From contig DWXO01000038.1 of the NCBI GenBank assembly GCA_019119165.1, forward strand, positions 1 through 34,964: a DNA stretch of 34,964 nucleotides, read 5' to 3'. A program made the translations under genes and the position numbers. The stretch's first letter is position 1. Every line of letters starts with the position of its first letter. Shown piece after piece: positions 643 to 10,282 of the stretch. This DNA is from Candidatus Flavonifractor intestinigallinarum (lineage in GTDB: Bacteria; Bacillota; Clostridia; Oscillospirales; Oscillospiraceae). The notes under the pieces are model-generated. The model had not been told where the DNA came from. It ran no database searches and saw nothing but the letters and a program-made list of their open reading frames with translations.

Positions 643-670
643 AGGTCCGCATCCCGAGGGATGCGGACCT
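643..670 (-). terminator. Hairpin, probably the original tRNA-Arg terminator now 9.5 kb away
   Basis: Perfect 12-bp arms AGGTCCGCATCC (643-654) and GGATGCGGACCT (659-670) with a 4-base loop, followed on the minus strand by the pyrimidine-rich tract CTTCTTTTCC. It abuts the left TGTG core of the integrated element. If the element is removed in silence of its sequence, the hairpin falls directly after the CCA end of tRNA-Arg(ACG), where a tRNA terminator is expected. The assignment is inferred from that reconstruction. Confidence 0.7.
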
Positions 671-673
671 GTG

Positions 674-698
674 TTAGGACGTCATTTATGGATATCGC
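674..698 (+). repeat. Left terminal inverted repeat (putative attL half-site)
   Basis: TTAGGACGTCATTTATGGATATCGC-type 25-base arm, matching the reverse complement of 10179-10203 at 22 of 25 positions. It contains the palindromes GACGTC and GATATC. It lies directly inside the left TGTG. Confidence 0.8.
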
Positions 699-720
699 TA
701 GCCCTATTTTTATCATTATT

Positions 721-785
721 GGTGCGTTTGACACGCTTGCACCAATTTTCTCTAATAGTAATACGTATAATTAGATTTGCACCAA
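721..785 (-). repeat. Left subterminal repeats
   Basis: TTGCACCAA occurs at 737-745 and 777-785, exactly 40 bases apart, and GGTGCGTTTGACACG lies at 721-735. Read on the minus strand, the unit (AATTATACGTATTAC, a spacer, then TTGGTGCAA) resembles the right-end unit at 9964-9997. The same unit is therefore present at both ends, each reading outward. They may be accessory binding sites for a recombinase or directionality factor; this is inference. Confidence 0.55.
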
Positions 786-929
786 TATTCCCAATAAGAT
801 ATCAAGGTACGCTTTATATAGAGAGTCTGGAGGGTAACAAAAGCAAAATGAAAAGACAAAAGGCTCCTCTTTTTTGGCTTCAAGCCTCTTTTGGCCTCTT
901 CAATTTACTTTCAACTCATCTCTCTAATA

Positions 930-2867
930 CTAACTCACTATTTCATAGGCTATTTGCATTTTTGTTTGCGCAACGAAAGATGCGATAGCGGTTTCTATTG
1001 TATCAGAGGAACATCCGGTTTTAATATGGATATACAAGTCCTCCTTAGCACGGCTACACGCAACATAATACATTCTCGTAAACTCATCTGATGGAGTCTC
1101 ATCAATTAGTTGAGGACGGCTGAATAGGGCAGAAAGTTTGATTTTATCAAACTTATTCGGGGTCACGCTTACGATAACCTTGTCCCATTCTAGCCCTTTA
1201 GCCTGATGGACCGTCATATATTTGCTGTCTTCCGAAAATACCTCGGTAAATAACTTATGCGAAGTTCCCCAATGTAGGCCATTAATTAAGTCCCTACGTG
1301 AATCGTCGTATTCGTCGAATAAAGGAATTTCAAAATCATCATCAAATACAGCTTTCCTTAAATCGATATACTCTTGTTCTTTGATTTTTGAGTTAAATGC
1401 CTCAATTATCGAAACCGTACAGGTGTCATCACCTATGGTAGAGAATATATCTTTGGATATTTTTCCAATTTGATATATAACTTTGGGAGTAATCTTTTGA
1501 GGGTCTATACTTCCATACAACTGCAGCGAGCGCAGTATATCTATAAATGAACCATTAAGGTAGCCTTCCCAAAGCATGAAGATAAATCGAAATGCTCGAA
1601 CCCAAGTCACATTGTTGTGCTCTACGATTTCGTCCCTTAGTTGAATTGGAGATGGTCTATAGGAACTATAGATGCTTTTAAGTAGCTCGCTTTGCTCATC
1701 GTCTATATCGCGTATATAATCAAATGCTGCCGCCCATGCGCGGGTGAGCACCACGCCCCCGTCCTGAATAACAGCCTGGATAATGCCCTGGACATTTTGG
1801 GAAGAGCCAATCAAAAAATGGATCTTTTTTGCTTCTGCTTTAGCTTTTTCATCTTCAGAATTGTACGCTCGTTTGCTGACTTGTTTTACTTTGTTATCGG
1901 ATTGTCTTAAAAAATTACAGAGATTAACTATATTTGCGGTAGAGCGTCGATTCCTGTTGATAACATATTCCTCTATAGGGCGCTGCCCTTCAATGGAGAA
2001 AGTGCCAAAATCTGTCGGACGAGCCCCTTGAAAGCTATAGATTGACTGCGCAATGTCACCAATTACACCAACAATAGTTGAACGTTGTCCAATTAACTTT
2101 ATCAGTAATGTTTGGATTGGATTTGTATCTTGGAATTCGTCAACAAAAATAAATGGGAACTTTACTCTTATCGCATATAGGGCAGTGGGGTTTGTTTCTA
2201 AAATCCTGTAGCCAAAATAGAGAACTTCGTCATGAGTTAACTTTCTCACCACAGACCATACATATTGCTTAAGCGGGATGATATGGCACTCAGCGATTTT
2301 GGAAGGAGCTTTTAGTTTTACTTGCCGGGTTTCTCCTTTGATTACAGAGTCTGCAAAACTATTGTTATCGGTTTGAATTTCCCCCATTGCCTTTTTGCTA
2401 TAATCAAAAACGTCGCTCGAAAATTCCGAAGGATTTAATTTCTTAACGTATTCGTATATTTCGTTTTTATCGATACCATGAAGAATGCCTAATCCTTCAA
2501 TTTGAGAAGTAATTTTGCCTTTCGCTCGTACGGAAATTCCAAAGTCAGATTCCATAAGCGATATCAAATCTTGTTGGAAAGGCTGAATAATGTGCTCTAT
2601 GATAAAGCCATGAATTGTACAGACGTCTACACAGTCTGTAAATTTATCAAGGCGCTTTTTGATTTCGTCAACTGCAGCGTTTGTATATGTGACGCATAAG
2701 ACTTTTCTGGATCGGCTCTCTACGATAGCTGAGTTCTGAGTGACAATATTTTTAACATTTTCAACTAGGAAGTGCGTTTTTCCAGCCCCCGGCCCTGCAT
2801 AGATTTTAAAATGGCTTTTCAGCTTTTCTGGGGTAAATATGTCTTCGGAGGTTATTTCAATAGCCAT
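930..2867 (-). CDS. gajB: GajB-like UvrD/PcrA-family helicase of a Gabija defence system
   Basis: 645-residue superfamily 1 helicase. Visible motifs are Walker A GPGAGKTH (about 25-32), motif Ia with TYTNAA (60-65), motif II DEFQD (243-247), motif III GDIAQSIYSFQGARP (270-284), motif V TVHQAKGLEWD (552-562) and motif VI YYVACSRAKEDL (600-611). The start is an ATG preceded by GAGGAGGG at good spacing. It overlaps the 3' end of gajA by 16 bases, which implies translational coupling. In Gabija, GajB is a DNA-dependent ATPase that assembles with the GajA nuclease and is thought to sense nucleotide depletion and DNA ends during phage replication. It is longer than the roughly 500-residue founding GajB, with an insertion between motifs III and V. 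Family assignment is firm; the system name rests on the gajA neighbour. Confidence 0.88.
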   Translation of the reverse strand: MAIEITSEDIFTPEKLKSHFKIYAGPGAGKTHFLVENVKNIVTQNSAIVESRSRKVLCVTYTNAAVDEIKKRLDKFTDCVDVCTIHGFIIEHIIQPFQQDLISLMESDFGISVRAKGKITSQIEGLGILHGIDKNEIYEYVKKLNPSEFSSDVFDYSKKAMGEIQTDNNSFADSVIKGETRQVKLKAPSKIAECHIIPLKQYVWSVVRKLTHDEVLYFGYRILETNPTALYAIRVKFPFIFVDEFQDTNPIQTLLIKLIGQRSTIVGVIGDIAQSIYSFQGARPTDFGTFSIEGQRPIEEYVINRNRRSTANIVNLCNFLRQSDNKVKQVSKRAYNSEDEKAKAEAKKIHFLIGSSQNVQGIIQAVIQDGGVVLTRAWAAAFDYIRDIDDEQSELLKSIYSSYRPSPIQLRDEIVEHNNVTWVRAFRFIFMLWEGYLNGSFIDILRSLQLYGSIDPQKITPKVIYQIGKISKDIFSTIGDDTCTVSIIEAFNSKIKEQEYIDLRKAVFDDDFEIPLFDEYDDSRRDLINGLHWGTSHKLFTEVFSEDSKYMTVHQAKGLEWDKVIVSVTPNKFDKIKLSALFSRPQLIDETPSDEFTRMYYVACSRAKEDLYIHIKTGCSSDTIETAIASFVAQTKMQIAYEIVS

Positions 2868-4522
2868 TGTAATCCCTCCTCAATGTATTTTGGAACAACA
2901 ATTTTTGATGATCCGTCTTTATTAATCAATTCTTTGTTGGTTAACACATCTAGTGCGAAATCTCCTTTTTTATTCTTAACATAGTCGGCATAACTTCTTA
3001 GCTTGCCGTCCTCATCAAAATCAATCCACTTAAAATCGTTGTCAGTAATACAGAGGACTTTTTTCTTAACAGCGTTACCATTAAACAATTCTACAAAATA
3101 GCCGAAGTGTTTGCCGCCAATTTCGACAATTGAGATGTGTTCATCTTCATATGGGCACCCGCATAATTCCATAAAAAGCGGCATTAATAACTTTTCAGCA
3201 ATGCCTTCTACTAGGATGATTTTATCTGCAAATAACATATCTGAGCGAGTGACATCCAAAAACTTCGTGAGATGCGCTTTCGCTTCAGCTTTAACAGTAG
3301 TCTGATCATCTTTATCCTTAAACTGTTCAAAAAGGCTTTGCTGCTGACAATCAGCATTTTCTCCATCGCGATCATACGCTAACATAAACATGTTATCGAT
3401 TCCTGCAACGGCAGATATATTGCTTGAATGTGTAGTGACAAATATTTGCTGGTTCAGCTCATCAGTTTCATCAAGTTTCTTTAGGTATTTAAACAATTTA
3501 TATTGCATTGCTGGATGCAAATGAGCCTCTGGTTCTTCCAGACACAGTATCCTGAAGTCCTTGCCTTTCTGTATTTCGGACAGTTTGATTAGCATATAAA
3601 TATTTATGAGATTATTATACCCAAGACCATTATTTTGCAGTGGCAATGTGTATCCTGTTTTTGTATCTTGGACTTCGGTGATGTATGCATCGGCTGGAGA
3701 AATGTTTGCTTTTACGGTCGAAGAAATTGAAACATTCCCTTTTTCTAGTCCAATTGAATTTTTCTCATTCTCAAATAGCGTGGTAAGTCTAGTAATTGGC
3801 GGGGATAGAATTTTCCCTAAATCCTCTGATGCTTTATGCCTGAATTTATCAAATTCCGCAGCGTTCTCCGCAGCCTTTGCAAAAACCTCTATCTCGTGTC
3901 TTATCTCCTTACGTACTTCTTCGCTAGTTCTCTCAGCTCCTATAAAGCGAATATCGAAAACGTCAGTTGCGGCTTTCTGCTCTACCTTTGTATCACTAAC
4001 CCCATTGGTATAGCTCCAAGAATAATGACTAGTGACAAAACGTTTCAATACGGTCAAATAGCTATTAAGATCTTCCGCTTCTGCCGCTACTGCTTTCTTA
4101 TAATCACCTAAAAACCTAACATCCAGTGCGTAGGTAGCTCGGATCTGAGCTTCAAGGTTATACTCAGCGACATCACCGTTCACCTGTCGATTTTCTTCAA
4201 ATCCCTTAATCCCTAAAAATGGTAGTAACTTTATAATGCTTTCATCACTTGTGTCATCCTCAGAGATTCTATGCTGAATGCTATATTCGATAACAATGCT
4301 TGGCGCTACTTCCGTGTACAGCTCTTGATATTTCTGTAAGTTATTTTTGTTAAAGTCATCAACTGAGACGTCGGAAGGAGATCTCAATAGATTTATCGCA
4401 TAAAGAAGGCCGGTCTTTCCAGAATTATTTGCGCCTATGATAACATTCAGGCCTTGATGAAAATCCATAGTAAAATCGCTAAAATTGCAATAATTCTGAA
4501 TGTGAATTTTATTTATATACAC
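2852..4522 (-). CDS. gajA: GajA-like OLD-family ATPase/TOPRIM nuclease of a Gabija defence system
   Basis: About 556 residues. The N-terminal ABC-type ATPase has Walker A GANNSGKT (about residues 30-37), signature/Walker B LCLEEPEAHLHP (about 326-337) and switch histidine VTTHSS (about 362-367). The C-terminal TOPRIM nuclease has ILVEG (about 436-440) and TDND (about 493-496), the acidic metal ligands. Length and order match GajA, a site-specific DNA nickase/nuclease inhibited by normal nucleotide levels and freed when phage replication depletes them. The chosen start is GTG at 4522, preceded by GGAGGG (4535-4530) at 7 bases. A GTG five codons upstream (4537) is also possible but overlaps that ribosome binding site. 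It is the first gene of the gajAB operon and no key residue is missing. Confidence 0.88.
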   Translation of the reverse strand: MYINKIHIQNYCNFSDFTMDFHQGLNVIIGANNSGKTGLLYAINLLRSPSDVSVDDFNKNNLQKYQELYTEVAPSIVIEYSIQHRISEDDTSDESIIKLLPFLGIKGFEENRQVNGDVAEYNLEAQIRATYALDVRFLGDYKKAVAAEAEDLNSYLTVLKRFVTSHYSWSYTNGVSDTKVEQKAATDVFDIRFIGAERTSEEVRKEIRHEIEVFAKAAENAAEFDKFRHKASEDLGKILSPPITRLTTLFENEKNSIGLEKGNVSISSTVKANISPADAYITEVQDTKTGYTLPLQNNGLGYNNLINIYMLIKLSEIQKGKDFRILCLEEPEAHLHPAMQYKLFKYLKKLDETDELNQQIFVTTHSSNISAVAGIDNMFMLAYDRDGENADCQQQSLFEQFKDKDDQTTVKAEAKAHLTKFLDVTRSDMLFADKIILVEGIAEKLLMPLFMELCGCPYEDEHISIVEIGGKHFGYFVELFNGNAVKKKVLCITDNDFKWIDFDEDGKLRSYADYVKNKKGDFALDVLTNKELINKDGSSKIVVPKYIEEGLQWLLK

Positions 4523-4561
4523 ATCTGCTCCCTCCACATTACCTGATTTTGTCCTATTGAA

Positions 4562-4590
4562 ATTGTAACACTATTTCCGGTCTCCCCCAA
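4562..4590 (-). promoter_or_regulatory. Possible gajAB promoter
   Basis: On the minus strand TTGGGG (4590-4585), 17 bases, then TACAAT (4567-4562), about 40 bases upstream of the gajA start. The -10 is good and the -35 is weak. This is the best candidate between gajA and the hsdR remnant. Confidence 0.4.
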
Positions 4591-4701
4591 TTAAACCGCA
4601 TTGATGCATGAATACATCACTTCTCTCAATGCATTGTTGGGGTTGCTATTTTCGCCTGAGCGGTAGACTTTTTAGCCCGTAAAGGTTCGAATAATCCCAG
4701 T

Positions 4702-4736
4702 CTGTTGGGAAAGCTCTTTGCTGTCTTTCCCGACAG
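4702..4736. other. Strong hairpin between the hsdR remnant and gajA
   Basis: Arms CTGTTGGGAAAG (4702-4713) and CTTTCCCGACAG (4725-4736) pair over 12 positions, with one G-T pair and an 11-base loop. It lies just after the hsdR stop on the minus strand. It has no adjacent T run, so it is not a classical terminator. It may isolate gajAB from upstream transcription or be a leftover of the hsd locus. Confidence 0.55.
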
Positions 4737-4767
4737 GCTGCACTATGGTCGCCTCCCGATTCCCGCT

Positions 4768-5490
4768 TTACCCCACATCGAATCCGCCGCTTAAAATAAA
4801 CTGTCTGAGAATGGTGTCGATCTTGGCTGGGATGCGGAATGTCTTGATCGGCTTACCCTCAGTGCGCCCAAAGTAGCCCCGCGCAATGTCGCGATCCACG
4901 GTATTCTTTAGCTTATCAAAAAGGCCAAATTCGTTGATATTTCCTGTTGTAACGTGGCGGTTCATGAAATCCCGCAGTTGCTTTTCGTCCACACCTATGA
5001 CCAGCGCGAAGCGATGAATCCGGTCGTTGCGCGCTTCCGCCTGATATTCGGTGATATAGTCCGAAAGTGTTTTATTATCTTCCATGGGTTTATTGCCTCG
5101 CTGGACATCAAGCAAAAACATGTGCGCATATTTTTGTTCTTCTTGGGACAAAACCGCAAAGGATTTGTGCAGCTCATTCAGGACATCGGCAGTTTCCATG
5201 CCATCCTGCAGTGCCTTAAGGAATTTCTTGAAACGGGAGTTCATGTACGCCTTGTCGATTGCGCCGGTATTGATTTCAGTGAGGTAGGGATCGATCTCAT
5301 ACGGCACGTCTTCCATTCCACCGCTTCCACCGTCACGAAACAGTTCTTTGTAGCGCATGGCCAGCACAAGGTAGGCGGTCTCATCGAAGTGCATCTTGAC
5401 GCTATGCTTGCCCGACTCTGTCTTGAATTCGTACTCCGGCTGCCCCCAGGTGAATCCCTGTACCTGAGCCGCCTCCAGATAATCGCTCAC
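4768..5490 (-). pseudogene. hsdR: 3' fragment of a type I restriction endonuclease R subunit (hsdR)
   Basis: 240 residues resembling only the C-terminal helical domain of type I HsdR, the part that docks on the methyltransferase. The start FTWGQPEYEF...HFDETAYLVLAMRYKELF and the later LSDYITEYQ segment are typical of that region. Full HsdR proteins are about 1000 residues, so the translocase and nuclease domains (roughly 75%) are absent. The only start is a GTG (5490) placed directly after an in-frame TAA, and there is no ribosome binding site. The break therefore falls at about 5490, where an unrelated gene remnant joins. No hsdS or hsdM is present nearby. The fragment cannot restrict DNA by itself. 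Recognition of the family is from remembered motifs. Confidence 0.75.
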
Positions 5491-5788
5491 TTAAAATTAG
5501 TGACTTAGTCATCGTGACCTTAAAGTTTTTCAAGAACTTTTTGGGAATCGGAGGATCCTGATTTGATGTCAGACCCTACCTCGGCGTTAAAGAGTTTCAA
5601 AAGCTTTATCTCCATTTTGCTTGCACTTCAGCATCAACAGTATCGCCTTGATTTGTCTCAATGGTCTCATCATTTTTGATGACATTGCTTAACATCATTT
5701 TTATTTCATATACTTTTGAAAAGTTCAAGTAATAAACATTAAAATAACACGGTGTTTCTTCACTTCCTTTGTGCTTTCTTGATCTATA
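5491..5788 (-). pseudogene. Frameshifted remnant of an unrecognised gene
   Basis: Three minus-strand frames join into one protein-like stretch of about 100 residues. The first runs from 5788 to the stop at 5606-5608 (60 codons, containing FNVYYLNFSKVYEIKMMLSN). The second runs from 5615 to the stop at 5520-5522 (MEIKLLKLFNAEVGSDIKSG and onward). The third runs from about 5518 to 5491 (KVTMTKSLILSE). A missing A in the AAAA tract near 5614-5617 and an extra T near 5520 would fuse all three. The 5' end overlaps the stop of the methyltransferase remnant, and the 3' end is cut by the hsdR fragment. The family is not recognised. The alternative is that these are chance frames, but the amino-acid composition is coding-like throughout. 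Confidence 0.5.
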
Positions 5789-6686
5789 CTAATAACTTCG
5801 CTAAACGTGGGCACTTAACATAAGATAGTTCTTTAGGCTCGATTTTTTTCAAACCTCCACCATACACTCGGCCTTCGCTTTCAAGATCATTAGCAGTAAT
5901 GTTATTCAAAGCGTTCCAAACCTCATATAGTATGTCGGGGGTCCGAGCAATTGTTTCTTGGAGAGTAGCTTTAGGATATAACATCAAATAAGAATTGGTG
6001 GCAATTGCGCTTGTGTGGTTCAAAATGAAACGAAAAGGCGTAGCGTGTTCGTCATTTCTTCTGCCCATATAAGAACATAAGAATGGCGTCGCCGATCTAT
6101 TTTCTTGGTAATACCAAACCTTACGATTTTTACACAGATACTTCTGTGCAGTAGTATCAATGCCGCTACTCAAGTAATTCCAGATGGACGGATGATTCTT
6201 TTTCACTTCCTCTTCTGGGAGCGTACAGTTAAGCAAGAAATACTGCGTGTCTAAGCAGGGATTTCCGTATTTATCACTAAACACTTCATTGCATTTTAAA
6301 TAACGAGGGCTTGGTAGAATTGGCGTAAAGAAATTCATGTCGAGATTTAGTTCTTCAATTTTTTCTTTAGACAAAATAAAGAAATCGTTGTCTCCAGTTG
6401 CCAATCCACGTTTAATCGTGAAAAAATCACCCAAAGTCGGAGCATGAGCGCTCAGAAGATTCCCATAATTGGTTGGAAAACGAGTCCATTTTCTACTTTT
6501 TACCAAAGTGTTCCTATCCACGTTTCGGCTGACTTCTGGTTTTTCAAGTGTTCCGCCATAAGAAAATTCGACATCATAATTGTTTTCCATGATCTCGTTT
6601 TTAAACCAAACCACACAGGAAGATACCAAAGCATCATCAAATTTACAGTTCTCAGGATTATATCTATGCACTCTAGTAGAGTTCAT
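5784..6686 (-). pseudogene. C-terminal half of an Eco57I-type adenine DNA methyltransferase
   Basis: 300 residues. The opening HRYNPENCKFDDALVSSCVV and the later FFTIKRGLATGDNDFFIL and PSPRYL segments are characteristic of the region after the catalytic domain and of the target-recognition domain of Eco57I/type IIG-like N6-adenine methyltransferases. The SAM-binding motif and the catalytic NPPY motif, normally in the first 200-250 residues, are absent. In-frame stops appear within seven codons upstream of the first ATG, and the region beyond shows no methylase-like frame. The gene is therefore 5'-truncated and should be inactive. It sits with the hsdR fragment in a decayed restriction-modification zone. 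A short free-standing specificity protein is a less likely alternative. Confidence 0.65.
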
Positions 6687-7306
6687 TCTAAATCCTATCA
6701 GACTTTATGCTTTAAGACACAGGTCAGCCCTGTGGCATTTTTCATGCTCAAAGCCAAATCCCAAAACCGTGTCCTATGCCCCAAGGCAATAAGCCCCTTC
6801 TGGCGGCACTAAACCGCCAAGGTCGGCTCGTTTGGTCGGTCTCGAGGGTTTACCCGCCCTGCGGTGCTTGGCCCGTGTAAGGGCCAGAAATACCATTACC
6901 ACGCCATAACTTGTAAAAATTACAACAACGGATTTTCCTGTGCCTTATTCGCCCTTCTACCACTGTTAAGGCATTACTTATCGGTCTAAATTGGGAATAA
7001 AATTCTCCTTTTAAAATCTGCAGAAATAAGTTATTGTCCGGAGGAAAACCAGATTTTACCGGCTTGTCAAGTTAGATAGATAGGCAAGCGACGAGCAATA
7101 CCGGTCAAGCTCAGCGGATTGCCAATTAGGGGTCGAGATAAAACTGGTTTTAATGAAATCAAAAAGGGGGAAAGTGTCCATTAGTAAATTAGAGGGACAA
7201 AAGTCGGCAAGAACTACAGTCAGGATATAAGCCGCTGGAAGACACGCGAAATTAAGCGTTGACTCTTTCCGGCCAGCAAGTGATGAATGTCGTTAGGAGG
7301 TAAATT
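6687..7306. other. Gene-free, hairpin-rich stretch upstream of the recombinases
   Basis: No convincing coding sequence is seen across 620 bases. Several short hairpins occur in 6715-6900: CACAGG/CCTGTG, GGCGG/CCGCC and TGGCCC/GGGCCA. A long-range pairing, AAAACCAGATTTTA (7045-7058) with TAAAACTGGTTTT (7139-7151), encloses about 80 bases. The recombinase ribosome binding site AGGAGG precedes 7307. The region may be the truncation scar of the methylase locus followed by the recombinase leader. Confidence 0.5.
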
Positions 7307-8632
7307 ATGTTACAGATCGAAGAAATACCGGCAAAGCCAAAAGAGCAAAAGACCATTCGCGTAGCGGCCTATGCCCGCGTTTCGTCCGAAAAGGATGCCG
7401 CTTTCCACTCATTGGAGGCGCAGACGGAATACTATCGCAACTATGTATCGGCACATTCGGATTGGGAACTGGTTTCAATTTATTCGGACAACGGGATTTC
7501 CGGGACAACGATCCATCGCCCAGAGTTTCAGCGGATGCTCCAGGATTGCCGGGATGGGAAAATTGACCTTGTAGTCACAAAATCGGTGACCCGCTTTGCG
7601 CGAAATACCGTAATTTTGCTAGAGACGATTCGGGAGTTAAAAAGGCTGGGCATAGACTGCTATTTCGAGAAAGAAGATATGCACAGCATCAGCCCGGACG
7701 GAGAGCTTTTGCTGACACTTCTGGCGATGTATGCCGAAGAAGAAGCACGCTCTGCTAGTGAAAACCAGAGATGGCGCATACAGAAGAAGTTTCAGAATGG
7801 TGAACCGTGGGTAGGTAAAATGCTAGGTTACCGTTTTAAGGATGGTAATCTGGTGGTCATTCCTGAAGAAGCTGCGATCGTACGTCAAATCTTTACAGAC
7901 TACCTTTCGGGTATGGGGCAGCACACGATTGCGAAAAAACTGTTCCTGCAAGGCGTCCGACCGGATAATGGCAATGCATGGTCAGGATCATCAATCCGAA
8001 GGATACTCACAAATGAAGCGTACACCGGAAATCTGGTATTACAAAAAACTTTCTGCCCAGATTTTCGCACTAAGAGGAGCCAAATAAATCGCGGAGAAAG
8101 AGCAATTTACCATGTCAGCAACAGCCATGAGGCAATTATTGATCAGGAAAGCTTTGATGCGGTTCAGACTGAACTGCAAGCAAGAGCGACCTTAAGGAGC
8201 AGTAACAGTGCGAAAACTATTAAGCCGTATCACCTGTTTCACGGACTGATCTACTGTGGTTATTGTGGGCGGTCATATGGGCACCATCGCACGAATGCGA
8301 AGAAGTACGACAAATCCGTCTGGGCATGTCCAACTCTTTATGCCATGGGTAAGGATATTTGCCCCTCACAGAGAATCCCCGAAGACATCTTGATCGAGAA
8401 AACGAAAGAAGTATTGGCCGTGGATGAGTTGGATCGGGATACTCTACTTACTAAGGTTCAGCAAATTATTGTTCCCGCTCATAACCGTCTGCAGTATCTT
8501 TTGGCGGACGGGACAGTGGTTGATGCGGAATGGCGACATCGATCCCGTAGCGAAAGCTGGACGGAAGAAATGCGTGAAGCTGCACGGCAAAAGACGATAG
8601 AGCGACAGAGAAAGGGGAGAAAAAATGAATAA
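7307..8632 (+). CDS. Large-type serine recombinase A
   Basis: 441 residues. The N-terminal resolvase/invertase domain contains RVAAYARVSS with the catalytic serine at about 26, and KSVTRFARNT with the catalytic arginines. A recombinase domain follows (about 160-260, with IRRILTNEAYTG). A zinc ribbon follows that, with ligands CGYC and a later C...C pair (about 325-360), then a basic C-terminus. The start follows AGGAGG at 7 bases. It overlaps recombinase B by 8 bases, so the two are made together. It is shorter than phage integrases (450-600 residues) and resembles paired Ccr-type recombinases. Inferred role: excision and integration of the surrounding element at tRNA-Arg, in concert with recombinase B. 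Confidence 0.92.
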   Translation: MLQIEEIPAKPKEQKTIRVAAYARVSSEKDAAFHSLEAQTEYYRNYVSAHSDWELVSIYSDNGISGTTIHRPEFQRMLQDCRDGKIDLVVTKSVTRFARNTVILLETIRELKRLGIDCYFEKEDMHSISPDGELLLTLLAMYAEEEARSASENQRWRIQKKFQNGEPWVGKMLGYRFKDGNLVVIPEEAAIVRQIFTDYLSGMGQHTIAKKLFLQGVRPDNGNAWSGSSIRRILTNEAYTGNLVLQKTFCPDFRTKRSQINRGERAIYHVSNSHEAIIDQESFDAVQTELQARATLRSSNSAKTIKPYHLFHGLIYCGYCGRSYGHHRTNAKKYDKSVWACPTLYAMGKDICPSQRIPEDILIEKTKEVLAVDELDRDTLLTKVQQIIVPAHNRLQYLLADGTVVDAEWRHRSRSESWTEEMREAARQKTIERQRKGRKNE

Positions 8633-9905
8633 AGAGCGCAAGATCACGATCATTGAACCAGTACGGCAGAAAATAGAGATAACGGCCACCGAGATACCTG
8701 AGAAGCTGCGTGTTGCCGCCTATGCTCGTGTTTCCACAGAGCAGGACGAACAGCAATCCAGCTACGAGGCACAGGTGGATTTCTACACCCGCTACATTCA
8801 GAGCAACCCGAATTGGGAATTTGTGGCTGTGTTTGCTGACGAAGGTATCACTGGTACGAATACTAGAAAACGTGATGGCTTTAACCTAATGATCCAGAAA
8901 GCCATGAATGGCGAAATAGATCTAATACTCACTAAATCCATCTCCCGCTTTGCCCGGAATACGGTGGATACGCTGCAAACCGTGCGCAAGTTAAAGGCTA
9001 TTGGTGTAGAGGTGATCTTTGAGAAAGAGAACCTACATACTCTGGATCCCAAGAGCGAGGTAATGCTTACTATTATGAGTTCCCTGGCGCAGGAGGAAAG
9101 CCGGTCTATCAGCGAAAATGTCCGCTGGGGCAAGCAGAAAAGCATGCGGGATGGCAAAGTCTCGCTGGCGTACTCCCGTTTCCTTGGTTACAAAAAGGGG
9201 CCTGACGGCAGACCGGAGATCGTGGAGGAAGAGGCAGTTATAGTCCGAGATATCTATAATTATTTTCTGTCCGGCAAGACGCTCAATGAGATTGCTGCGC
9301 TCCTGACGAGGATGGGCATTCCAACGCCCGCAGGCAAGAACAAATGGAGCGTCAGCACTATCCGTAGCATCCTCAGCAATGAAAAATACAAGGGCGAAGC
9401 ACTGCTTCAGAAGACCTATACCGTGGATTATCTCACCAAAGAGGTCAGAAAGAATAACGGCGAAGTGGCATCTATCCTCGTCCGCCATTCCCATGAGGCG
9501 ATCATAGAGCCGGAAGTATTTGATCTGGTGCAGGAGATGCTGGCAGATAACATCAAGCGCCGATCCAAAGTGCGCACCAAGCATCCGTTTGCCGGCAAAA
9601 TCGTCTGTGGCGATTGCGGCGGTTTCTATGGTCACAAGGTCTGGCGGCTACGCAGCACAGGGGAACGCTACGATGTCTGGTACTGCAACCACAAGTACGA
9701 TGGCGATGAGATATGTGACTCTCCAAGGCTTCGGGAGACCGAAATCAGAGATGCATTTGAAAAAGTGCTGCAAGAATGCGGTGATCCGAATCCTGTCTAC
9801 ACCGATGAGCGGTGGAACGAGCTGGTTCAATCCGTCGCAGTTTATAGGGGTAATTACCTTATCTTCACCTTAGTAAATGGCGAGACAGTGAAGATTACCC
9901 TCTAA
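8625..9905 (+). CDS. Large-type serine recombinase B
   Basis: 426 residues with the same architecture as its neighbour: RVAAYARVST with the catalytic serine at about 37, KSISRFARNT, a recombinase domain with IRSILSNEKYKG, and a zinc ribbon CGDC...C...C (about 330-370). The ATG lies inside the end of recombinase A, and GGGGAG upstream serves as the ribosome binding site. The sequence has clearly diverged from A although motifs align throughout. A heteromeric pair acting on the two different half-sites is possible; this is inference. A good terminator follows 19 bases after the stop. Confidence 0.92.
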   Translation: MNKERKITIIEPVRQKIEITATEIPEKLRVAAYARVSTEQDEQQSSYEAQVDFYTRYIQSNPNWEFVAVFADEGITGTNTRKRDGFNLMIQKAMNGEIDLILTKSISRFARNTVDTLQTVRKLKAIGVEVIFEKENLHTLDPKSEVMLTIMSSLAQEESRSISENVRWGKQKSMRDGKVSLAYSRFLGYKKGPDGRPEIVEEEAVIVRDIYNYFLSGKTLNEIAALLTRMGIPTPAGKNKWSVSTIRSILSNEKYKGEALLQKTYTVDYLTKEVRKNNGEVASILVRHSHEAIIEPEVFDLVQEMLADNIKRRSKVRTKHPFAGKIVCGDCGGFYGHKVWRLRSTGERYDVWYCNHKYDGDEICDSPRLRETEIRDAFEKVLQECGDPNPVYTDERWNELVQSVAVYRGNYLIFTLVNGETVKITL

Positions 9906-9924
9906 GCCATAGCACATTACAAGC

Positions 9925-9953
9925 AACGCCGCAGGACAGCCTGCGGCGTTTTT
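9925..9953 (+). terminator. Terminator of the recombinase operon
   Basis: Arms AACGCCGCAGG (9925-9935) and CCTGCGGCGTT (9940-9950) with loop ACAG, continuing into a T5 tract. A perfect 11-bp stem placed just after recombinase B. Confidence 0.9.
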
Positions 9954-9963
9954 CTATCGTAAA

Positions 9964-10078
9964 AATTATCCGTATCACTTTTGAAAAAAGTGGTGCAAAA
10001 ATAATTATCCGTATCAAAAGTGGTGCATTTGATACGCCAAAAAAATTATCCTTTTTAATCCGGTTTCAAAACTGGTGC
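9964..10078 (+). repeat. Right subterminal direct repeats
   Basis: AATTATCCGTATCA occurs perfectly at 9964-9977 and 10003-10016, with a shorter AATTATCC at 10044-10051. Each is followed by a TGGTGCA (9991-9997, 10021-10027, 10073-10079). The unit is about 40 bases and is imperfectly repeated three times. A diverged copy lies in inverted orientation at the left end of the element. Confidence 0.7.
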
Positions 10079-10121
10079 ATCCTGTTCCTTGACGAGAGCA
10101 CAAATGATTAAAAAAGGACAC

Positions 10122-10161
10122 AAAAAAGTGGGTCATCCCCGCGATTAACAGGGATGACCCA
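10122..10161 (-). terminator. Element-borne terminator now serving tRNA-Arg
   Basis: Arms TGGGTCATCCC (10129-10139) and GGGATGACCCA (10151-10161). On the minus strand a T6 tract follows (10127-10122). It lies 45 bases downstream of the tRNA-Arg CCA end but inside the element, so it appears to replace the terminator displaced to 643-670. Confidence 0.8.
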
Positions 10162-10178
10162 TGATTTTGCGTCGTTAT

Positions 10179-10203
10179 GCGATATCCATAGACGACGTCT
10201 TAA
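10179..10203 (-). repeat. Right terminal inverted repeat (putative attR half-site)
   Basis: The 25-base arm matches the left arm at 674-698 in inverted orientation with three mismatches. It lies directly inside the right TGTG (10204-10207), which overlaps the tRNA-Arg 3' end. Confidence 0.8.
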
Positions 10204-10205
10204 TG

Positions 10206-10282
10206 TGGTACGGCTGAAGGGATTCGAACCCCCGACCTTTTGGTTCGTAGCCAAACACTCTATCCAACTGAGCTACAGCCGC
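10206..10282 (-). tRNA. tRNA-Arg (anticodon ACG), integration target
   Basis: A 77-nt cloverleaf with encoded CCA on the minus strand. The acceptor GCGGCTG pairs with CAGCCGT, including a terminal G-T pair. The anticodon loop CTACGAA gives ACG, the wobble-inosine arginine tRNA. The element joins within CCACA at its 3' end, and the tRNA sequence is intact after integration. Confidence 0.95.

Follow-up and report, generated by a model that had tools for sequence, protein, structure and literature searches.

Here we describe a genomic island of about 9.5 kb in Candidatus Flavonifractor intestinigallinarum (GCA_019119165.1, contig DWXO01000038.1), which carries an anti-phage system as cargo and ends on the right exactly at the CCA of a gene for transfer RNA (tRNA), tRNA-Arg. 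The stretch of DNA analysed, called the window, is 34,964 nt long, and all positions refer to it. Comparison with related genomes makes it highly probable that the island is a member, integrated here, of a family of cassettes moved by twin large serine recombinases, which use the 3' ends of tRNA and transfer-messenger RNA (tmRNA) genes as the chromosomal attachment site (attB). The wider result is this family, whose members appear to enter many different tRNA genes, each at the CA of its CCA.

Edges of the island and size of the overlap

The island is bounded by two inverted arms of 25 bases (674-698 and 10179-10203), in which 22 of 25 bases pair (88%), with TGTG copies outside them at 670-673 and 10204-10207. 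These repeats had been reported in a preliminary description made from the window alone, and they are indeed present. From base composition, about 0.0045 ungapped arm pairs of such quality are expected in the 10.7-kb region, a value that does not require their position at the edges. A 21-base piece of the arm, searched with up to 3 mismatches, occurs in the source assembly (2.29 Mb, 105 contigs, 85.6% complete) only at the two island sites. The right arm had been placed at the CCA end of tRNA-Arg(ACG), which was borne out by both ARAGORN and Rfam: the complete gene lies on the minus strand at 10206-10282, its end being set at 10206 by ARAGORN, with CCA at 10206-10208, and at 10209 by Rfam, without CCA. 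An Rfam scan of the window gave four tRNAs and nothing else.

As had been proposed, the site was compared with genomes lacking the island. The genus search covered 20 genomes including the window's own. Sixteen of the others gave junction rows, 17 in total, of which 15 extend past the tRNA and two (L017 and L029) represent one junction. In none of these rows does the island come after the CCA of tRNA-Arg, nor did the arm scan detect an arm in their loci, so that the relatives show an uninterrupted tRNA-Arg site. Three of them (L008, L009, L014) combine the empty site with the left flank of the window, at 94.5-96.3% identity over 236-304 bases. A terminator hairpin follows CCA after 0-1 nt in 12 of the 14 same-genus tRNA-Arg copies tested, but in the window this hairpin (643-670, minus strand, 12-bp stem) stands across the island, which therefore sits between tRNA-Arg and its terminator; in the reconstructed empty site the hairpin comes directly after CCA. 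The two exceptions, L012 and L019, share a similar sequence after tRNA-Arg (CGAACACATTGT...TTTTCGTAAACGGTTTTTTCGG) with no strong hairpin, possibly another element end or a relic.

The 25-base arm was also sought beside similar recombinase pairs, a search suggested in the preliminary description. Among the named genomes, from which 43 loci with a relative of recombinase 2 were taken, recognisable copies occur in six loci of several genera, at both ends in L039, L056 and L040 and at one end in L037, L038 and L043. Two further arm matches, L067 with 6 mismatches and L119 with 3, have neither a tRNA nor an element around them and appear to be fortuitous.

These relatives set the register of the overlap. 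The preliminary description had relied on a 4-bp direct repeat, TGTG, and had predicted from it a circular junction of 54 bases, arm-TGTG-arm. However, the right side reads TN-TG in L037, L039, L056 and L040, and the opposite side TG-TG wherever it was mapped (the window, L038, L039, L040, L045 and L056); the block common to L039 and L056 starts with TG-TGTTGTG and ends with TAATC-TG, and around TG both arms fall in a symmetric register. Further evidence is provided by empty sites among the relatives of Blautia An81, the host of L039, 27 of 31 of which gave a match. Six loci reach the tRNA-Ser 3' end and read CTCCG(T/C)CA-GAAnAT; when the An81 flanks are rejoined, a 2-bp core gives CTCCGTCA-GAAAAC and a 4-bp core gives CTCCGTCACAGAAAAC. 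The TN-TG right ends, the TG-to-TG common block and the An81 empty sites together led us to reject the 4-bp core. Judged from these alignments, the TGTG outside the right arm of the window arose by chance from the two bases with which that arm begins.

Four further An81 relatives, excluded from the empty-site comparison because their match stopped short of the tRNA 3' end, have no CA in the CCA place of tRNA-Ser (GTA in L273, TTT in L277, CTG in L275 and L276), and CA is therefore not universal in the tRNA-Ser genes of this group. No clean empty site was found among the relatives of the Faecalicoccus carrier, whose tRNA-Pro has unrelated flanks.

For the window itself the 2-bp core rests on analogy with the other elements. 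By this analogy, the element would consist of 672-10205 plus one TG, and the attachment site of the excised circle (attP) would read arm-TGTGTG-arm and be 56 bases long. Its left edge would be the first copy of the overlap (TG, 670-671), TGTG being found also at the mapped ends of L038, L039, L040, L043, L045 and L056, followed by the left attachment arm (TG plus the 25-base inverted arm, 672-698, plus strand). On the tRNA side, the right arm (10179-10205, minus strand), assigned like the left one by arm pairing and the arm scan of relatives, would be followed by the second copy at 10206-10207, that is the CA of the CCA with which the tRNA closes (positions 75-76, read on the tRNA strand). Thus the island with dyad attachment arms at a tRNA 3' end stands as first described, while its overlap is to be read as TG at 670-671/10206-10207 in place of TGTG. 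An attP of about 50 bp, with inverted arms around a 2-bp overlap common with attB, is the arrangement of serine integrases, and the predicted site conforms to it.

Many tRNA genes as targets

The same element may occupy different tRNA genes. The elements of Blautia An81 (L039, tRNA-Ser) and Faecalicoccus (L056, tRNA-Pro), from different families, have 8,291 bp in common at 95.1% identity, and genome G669 carries one sister element in tRNA-Ser and another in tRNA-Leu, with 93.6% identity between them in recombinase 2. Among the eight close pairs compared six differ in isotype, the remaining four being Ser/Pro (91.0%), Pro/Leu (90.7%), Arg/Ser (the window and L037, 86.2%) and Pro/Leu (79.7%); the two pairs that agree are Met/Met (95.7%) and Leu/Leu (91.0%). 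The tRNA-side end was found directly after the tRNA in L037 (Ser, Flavonifractor), L039, L056 and L113 (Leu, Anaerobutyricum), and more distant members adjoin Glu, Pro, Leu, Cys, Lys, Ser, Met, Ala and Arg tRNAs as well as tmRNA.

Sampled surveys, with the window genome counted, detected relatives in 16 of 300 genomes of the family (recombinase 1 as query, E up to 1e-100) and, with recombinase 2 as query (E up to 1e-120), in 29 of 394 genomes of the order and 23 of 391 of the class. For targeting, 110 loci were examined; these include near copies or loci of a common genome (L051/L072, L208/L214, L219/L220) and are not independent events. Where the sequence extended at least 1 kb past recombinase 2, as it did in 97 loci, a facing tRNA or tmRNA 3' end was found within that distance in 30, versus 0 of 83 on the mirror side of recombinase 1; within 5 kb the counts are 31 of 78 versus 1 of 23. 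The facing gene was called by ARAGORN in 39 loci, which together present 19 anticodons plus tmRNA (L055 and L069). Adding two loci placed by hand, L049 (a tmRNA-like end from the arm scan) and L129, we obtained 41 junctions, and in all 41 the last two tRNA positions are CA (39 CCA, 2 TCA). Arm motifs stand at the expected place in 37 of the 41, the ACGTC-like motif alone in 7, GATA alone in 21 and both in 9. The tRNA label clusters in a tree built from 103 recombinases (20 changes versus 30.7 when shuffled) and is present on both main branches. Of the 20 rows in the clade of the window, 13 have a tRNA or tmRNA as site, 6 bear the label none and one is too short. Calling the use of a tRNA 3' end by such a pair unusual, as was done at first, understated the matter, since this recombinase group has repeatedly taken tRNA and tmRNA 3' ends as targets.

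Most elements also carry a terminator-like hairpin just inside the tRNA-side end. In the window it lies at 10129-10161 (minus strand), about 45 nt inside that end, with a 14-bp stem followed by CTTTTTT. Of the 41 junctions, 36 have a hairpin with a T-run in the outermost 120 nt of the element, versus 3 when a stretch deeper inside was taken; among shuffled sequences 12 of 410 scored. These counts come from a second detector: the first was faulty, missing the clear hairpin of the window (22 of 41 versus 24 of 123 shuffles and 11 of 41 deeper), and was replaced. From this we infer that the elements probably replace the terminator that they displace.

One element stands in the opposite orientation. 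In An169 (L038/L128) the left end lies at tRNA-Leu(TAG), which reads TTG in the CCA place, so that TG occupies positions 75-76 and the element is reversed; the sole other arm found is on a different contig, in non-tRNA DNA. In serine integrases the overlap dinucleotide controls orientation, and the reversal fits a non-palindromic overlap setting the direction, which as a single case is suggestive only.

Two related recombinases (L043, L075) come from assemblies labelled Saccharibacteria, L075 facing tRNA-Leu; either wide transfer or misbinning is possible. Related recombinases, all below 60% identity, were also found in 143 phage and 85 plasmid records (E up to 1e-60). Ten gut-phage records, PV036433 and PV036413 among them, hold two to four related recombinase places each.

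The recombinases and their cargo

The two recombinase genes are adjacent on the plus strand, uninterrupted, and overlap by 8 bases: recombinase 1 (7307-8632, 441 aa) and recombinase 2 (8625-9905, 426 aa). Both proteins have the order of domains of large serine recombinases (Pfam Resolvase, Recombinase and zinc ribbon, Zn_ribbon_recom in recombinase 1), and in both the YARVS catalytic-serine motif was aligned to a recombinase domain of known structure, PDB 3g13. In NCBIfam the top match of each is CcrB, at 150 and 123.5 bits against a cut-off of 900, and CcrA scores are 56.6 and 60.3 bits against a cut-off of 700. CcrA and CcrB equivalogs were thereby ruled out, and the earlier term 'Ccr-like' holds for the architecture of the gene pair but not for the CcrB scores. 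The domain scan covered the six large open reading frames (ORFs) of the window; among these the twin serine recombinases, recognised in the preliminary description, are the only integrases, and no tyrosine integrase (Phage_integrase), relaxase or capsid gene was found. In the Faecalicoccus copy recombinase 2 (L056:10061-11187) is split over two frames, a 361-aa ORF being continued in another, and this copy may not be self-mobile.

The cargo of the window, all on the minus strand, begins with an adjacent pair that corresponds to Gabija and has a predicted anti-phage function: a GajB-like UvrD helicase (930-2867; Pfam PF00580, PADLOC GajB PDLC00119 at 1.1e-99) and a GajA-like AAA ATPase with an OLD-like TOPRIM domain (2852-4537; Pfam PF13175 and PF20469, PADLOC GajA PDLC00069 at 9.8e-94). 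Beside this intact pair (930-4537) lie two restriction-modification remnants (4768-6686), and an earlier cargo seems to have decayed. One is the C-terminal part of a type I restriction R subunit (4768-5490, 240 aa; Pfam EcoR124_C at 5.9e-20, profile positions 54-260), and the other that of a type II-like methyltransferase (5784-6686; PADLOC MTase_II at 4.7e-77 from profile position 212, Pfam M_Eco57I_C under the cut-off). Cargo differs among relatives: a nitroreductase, MatE transporters and an acetyltransferase in L056; a MerR regulator and an ABC transporter in L040; a flavin reductase, an HxlR regulator and a ferredoxin-type protein in L045. A weak match to a conjugative coupling-protein domain came from an ORF to the left of the recombinases in L037, an element with an unmapped left end.

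Mechanism, alternatives and significance

In the mechanism that we propose, the recombinases would bind two sites, the dyad attP of the excised circle and the 3' end of the tRNA; they would cleave around the CA dinucleotide that closes the CCA (tRNA positions 75-76) and then rejoin the strands. The tRNA would be left whole, with 2 bp as the sole duplication. Since integration parts the tRNA from its own terminator, most elements would carry a substitute just inside the tRNA-side end. One recombinase type could enter many tRNA genes because the targets share a tRNA 3' half and a CA at a constant position (possibly TG in the single case of An169). The edges, the empty sites, the 2-bp core in the clade of the window, the variety of targets and the terminator-like hairpins are seen in the sequences themselves. 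That these enzymes do the cutting, that both are needed, that the element is excised and which part of the tRNA is read are all matters of inference. We give about an even chance to a stronger claim, namely that paired serine recombinases of a widespread group evolved to recognise tRNA 3' ends as a class, through common tRNA features and CA (or reversed TG) at 75-76, with their own terminator repairing the damage. A search with attP-junction patterns in both registers gave 0 matches in viral contigs, a count that does not favour the proposed mechanism; the left arm itself also gave 0. The T-arm motif mirrored in attP, at the offset known from other serine integrases, gave no signal, the position-weight score not exceeding that of the reversed control.

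Several further observations weigh against the proposed explanation. A facing tRNA is missing from most related loci, namely from 67 of 97 within 1 kb and from 47 of 78 within 5 kb; some of these elements may be longer than the stretch analysed, and others may be at different targets. Within the clade of the window this holds for six loci, L042, L043, L044, L046, L047 and L038, the last of which abuts tRNA-Leu at its other end. The larger flanks of L044, L046, L042, L105 and L111 contained a single tRNA, in L130, and this one has no arm. Non-tRNA DNA adjoins the right end of L040 and, on the second contig, one right arm of An169. Four junctions (L050, L075, L217, L243) have neither arm motif, L217 and L243 being possibly unoccupied sites with their plain native terminators. 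Left ends, and hence the 2-bp core, were mapped in the clade of the window alone; in the second (GATACAAT) arm group, no fixed position of the left end was found for the L219/L220 pair. Displaced host flanks score as terminators in three of five cases (the window, L039 and L040; L056 and L045 fail), and one of five also scores inside the left end, namely the window, weakly (20.5, threshold 20). Finally, the candidate ends of the sister group L202, L235 and L110 lie in non-tRNA sequence, and this group seems to have other targets too. About 260-710 bp past recombinase 2, these three loci show GATACAA-type arms and a hairpin-like stretch preceded by TGGCAAA.

Low target specificity is known from Tn4451-like elements, and if the island were of this kind its tRNA neighbourhood would be coincidental or an effect of tolerance to insertion. 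The many related loci with no nearby tRNA agree with this, as do the right end of L040 and the An169 arm; nevertheless, the 30 of 97 facing tRNAs against none of 83 on the mirror side, and CA at the very tRNA end in all 41 junctions, make it improbable. Somewhat less probable still is a member of the staphylococcal cassette chromosome (SCC) type with a single fixed site, found at tRNA-Arg in this lineage by chance. SCC elements have two adjacent large serine recombinases (CcrA/CcrB) and interchangeable cargo and insert at the 3' end of rlmH. The island resembles them in its adjacent recombinase pair, exchangeable cargo, use of a gene 3' end as site and CcrB as top match of both proteins, but its site is the tRNA-Arg 3' end instead of rlmH, many tRNA genes are used by its relatives, and its proteins stay far under the Ccr cut-offs (150 and 123.5 bits versus 900 for CcrB). 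A single fixed site is further contradicted by close relatives at different tRNAs (Arg in the window and Ser in L037, at 86% amino-acid identity) and by the near-identical element in two isotypes (Ser in L039, Pro in L056).

Tyrosine integrases are the enzymes usually reported at tRNA genes (PMC4383910, as far as accessible), and one could suppose that a lost enzyme of this class placed the island, with the serine recombinases as passengers. We regard this as the most remote of the alternatives: the six large ORFs scanned include no such integrase, the left end, by its mapped core, carries no displaced tRNA fragment and only 2 bp (TG) in common, and in several genera these arms accompany this recombinase pair. 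A different question, compatible with an integrated cassette of the twin-recombinase family, is whether the island, correctly delimited and of the described kind, is by now an immobile relic in this genome. Two cargo genes are C-terminal remnants and the arms differ at 3 of 25 bases; on the other side, both recombinase ORFs are intact, with three domains and the catalytic-serine motif, and both arms and both TG copies are present. We consider a relic possible, though rather unlikely.

Among described systems, the ssrA islands of Dehalococcoides are integrated at tmRNA by the CcrB-like DsiB (McMurdie 2011, PMC3146451; the accessible part is used here for all comparisons). They resemble the present elements in a serine recombinase pair (DsiB/DsiA) likened to CcrB/CcrA, in the 3' end of a tRNA-like gene as site and in variable cargo. 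They differ in having ssrA as their single target, a direct repeat of 20 bp and a dsiB gene that overlaps the attachment site, while here, compared by description, many tRNA isotypes are used, the core is 2 bp and the recombinases lie inside the element. Integration of serine recombinases into tRNA genes was called rare in the accessible part of Ghinet 2011 (PMC3218068), where phage phiRSM and mycobacterial elements in one tRNA-Leu are cited. In these cases, phiRSM and the mycobacterial actinomycete integrative and conjugative elements, a serine recombinase acts at a tRNA gene (tRNA-Ser and tRNA-Leu, respectively), as it does here, but each is described at one tRNA gene in the accessible parts of PMC3218068 and PMC4471427, which mention neither an enzyme pair nor many isotypes; in PMC4471427 the tRNA-Ser site is given as 5' in the text and 3' in a table.

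According to the accessible part of the Islander paper (PMC4383910), tyrosine integrases alone were known to target tRNA genes (tDNAs), and the search was restricted to them; a review of integrative and mobilizable elements, likewise seen in part, also names tyrosine enzymes at tRNA 3' ends. Those islands use the same kind of target and leave the gene functional, as here. In them, as far as PMC4383910 describes them, the split gene is restored by a tRNA fragment on the island, while in the present family the joint falls within the last two bases, no restoration takes place and the element brings a terminator-like hairpin. Multi-targeting large serine recombinases (Durrant 2022, PMC10083194) are similar in that close relatives have several targets, and different in that targets were grouped at the protein level by disrupted gene clusters, the main text in its accessible part having no word beginning with tRNA. 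No description of a paired serine-recombinase family using many tRNA genes was found in open-access PMC titles and abstract starts, a search with subscription journals and preprints outside its scope.

If the proposed reading is true, the annotation of islands would change, since the Islander search covers tyrosine integrases alone. The family would be one route by which defence cassettes, such as this Gabija island, pass between gut Firmicutes. It would also provide integrases with many predictable and harmless sites, and would make testable what a serine recombinase reads in a tRNA gene. Should tRNA 3' ends indeed be recognised as a class, most bacteria would offer dozens of landing sites of general use, at which the target gene is spared.

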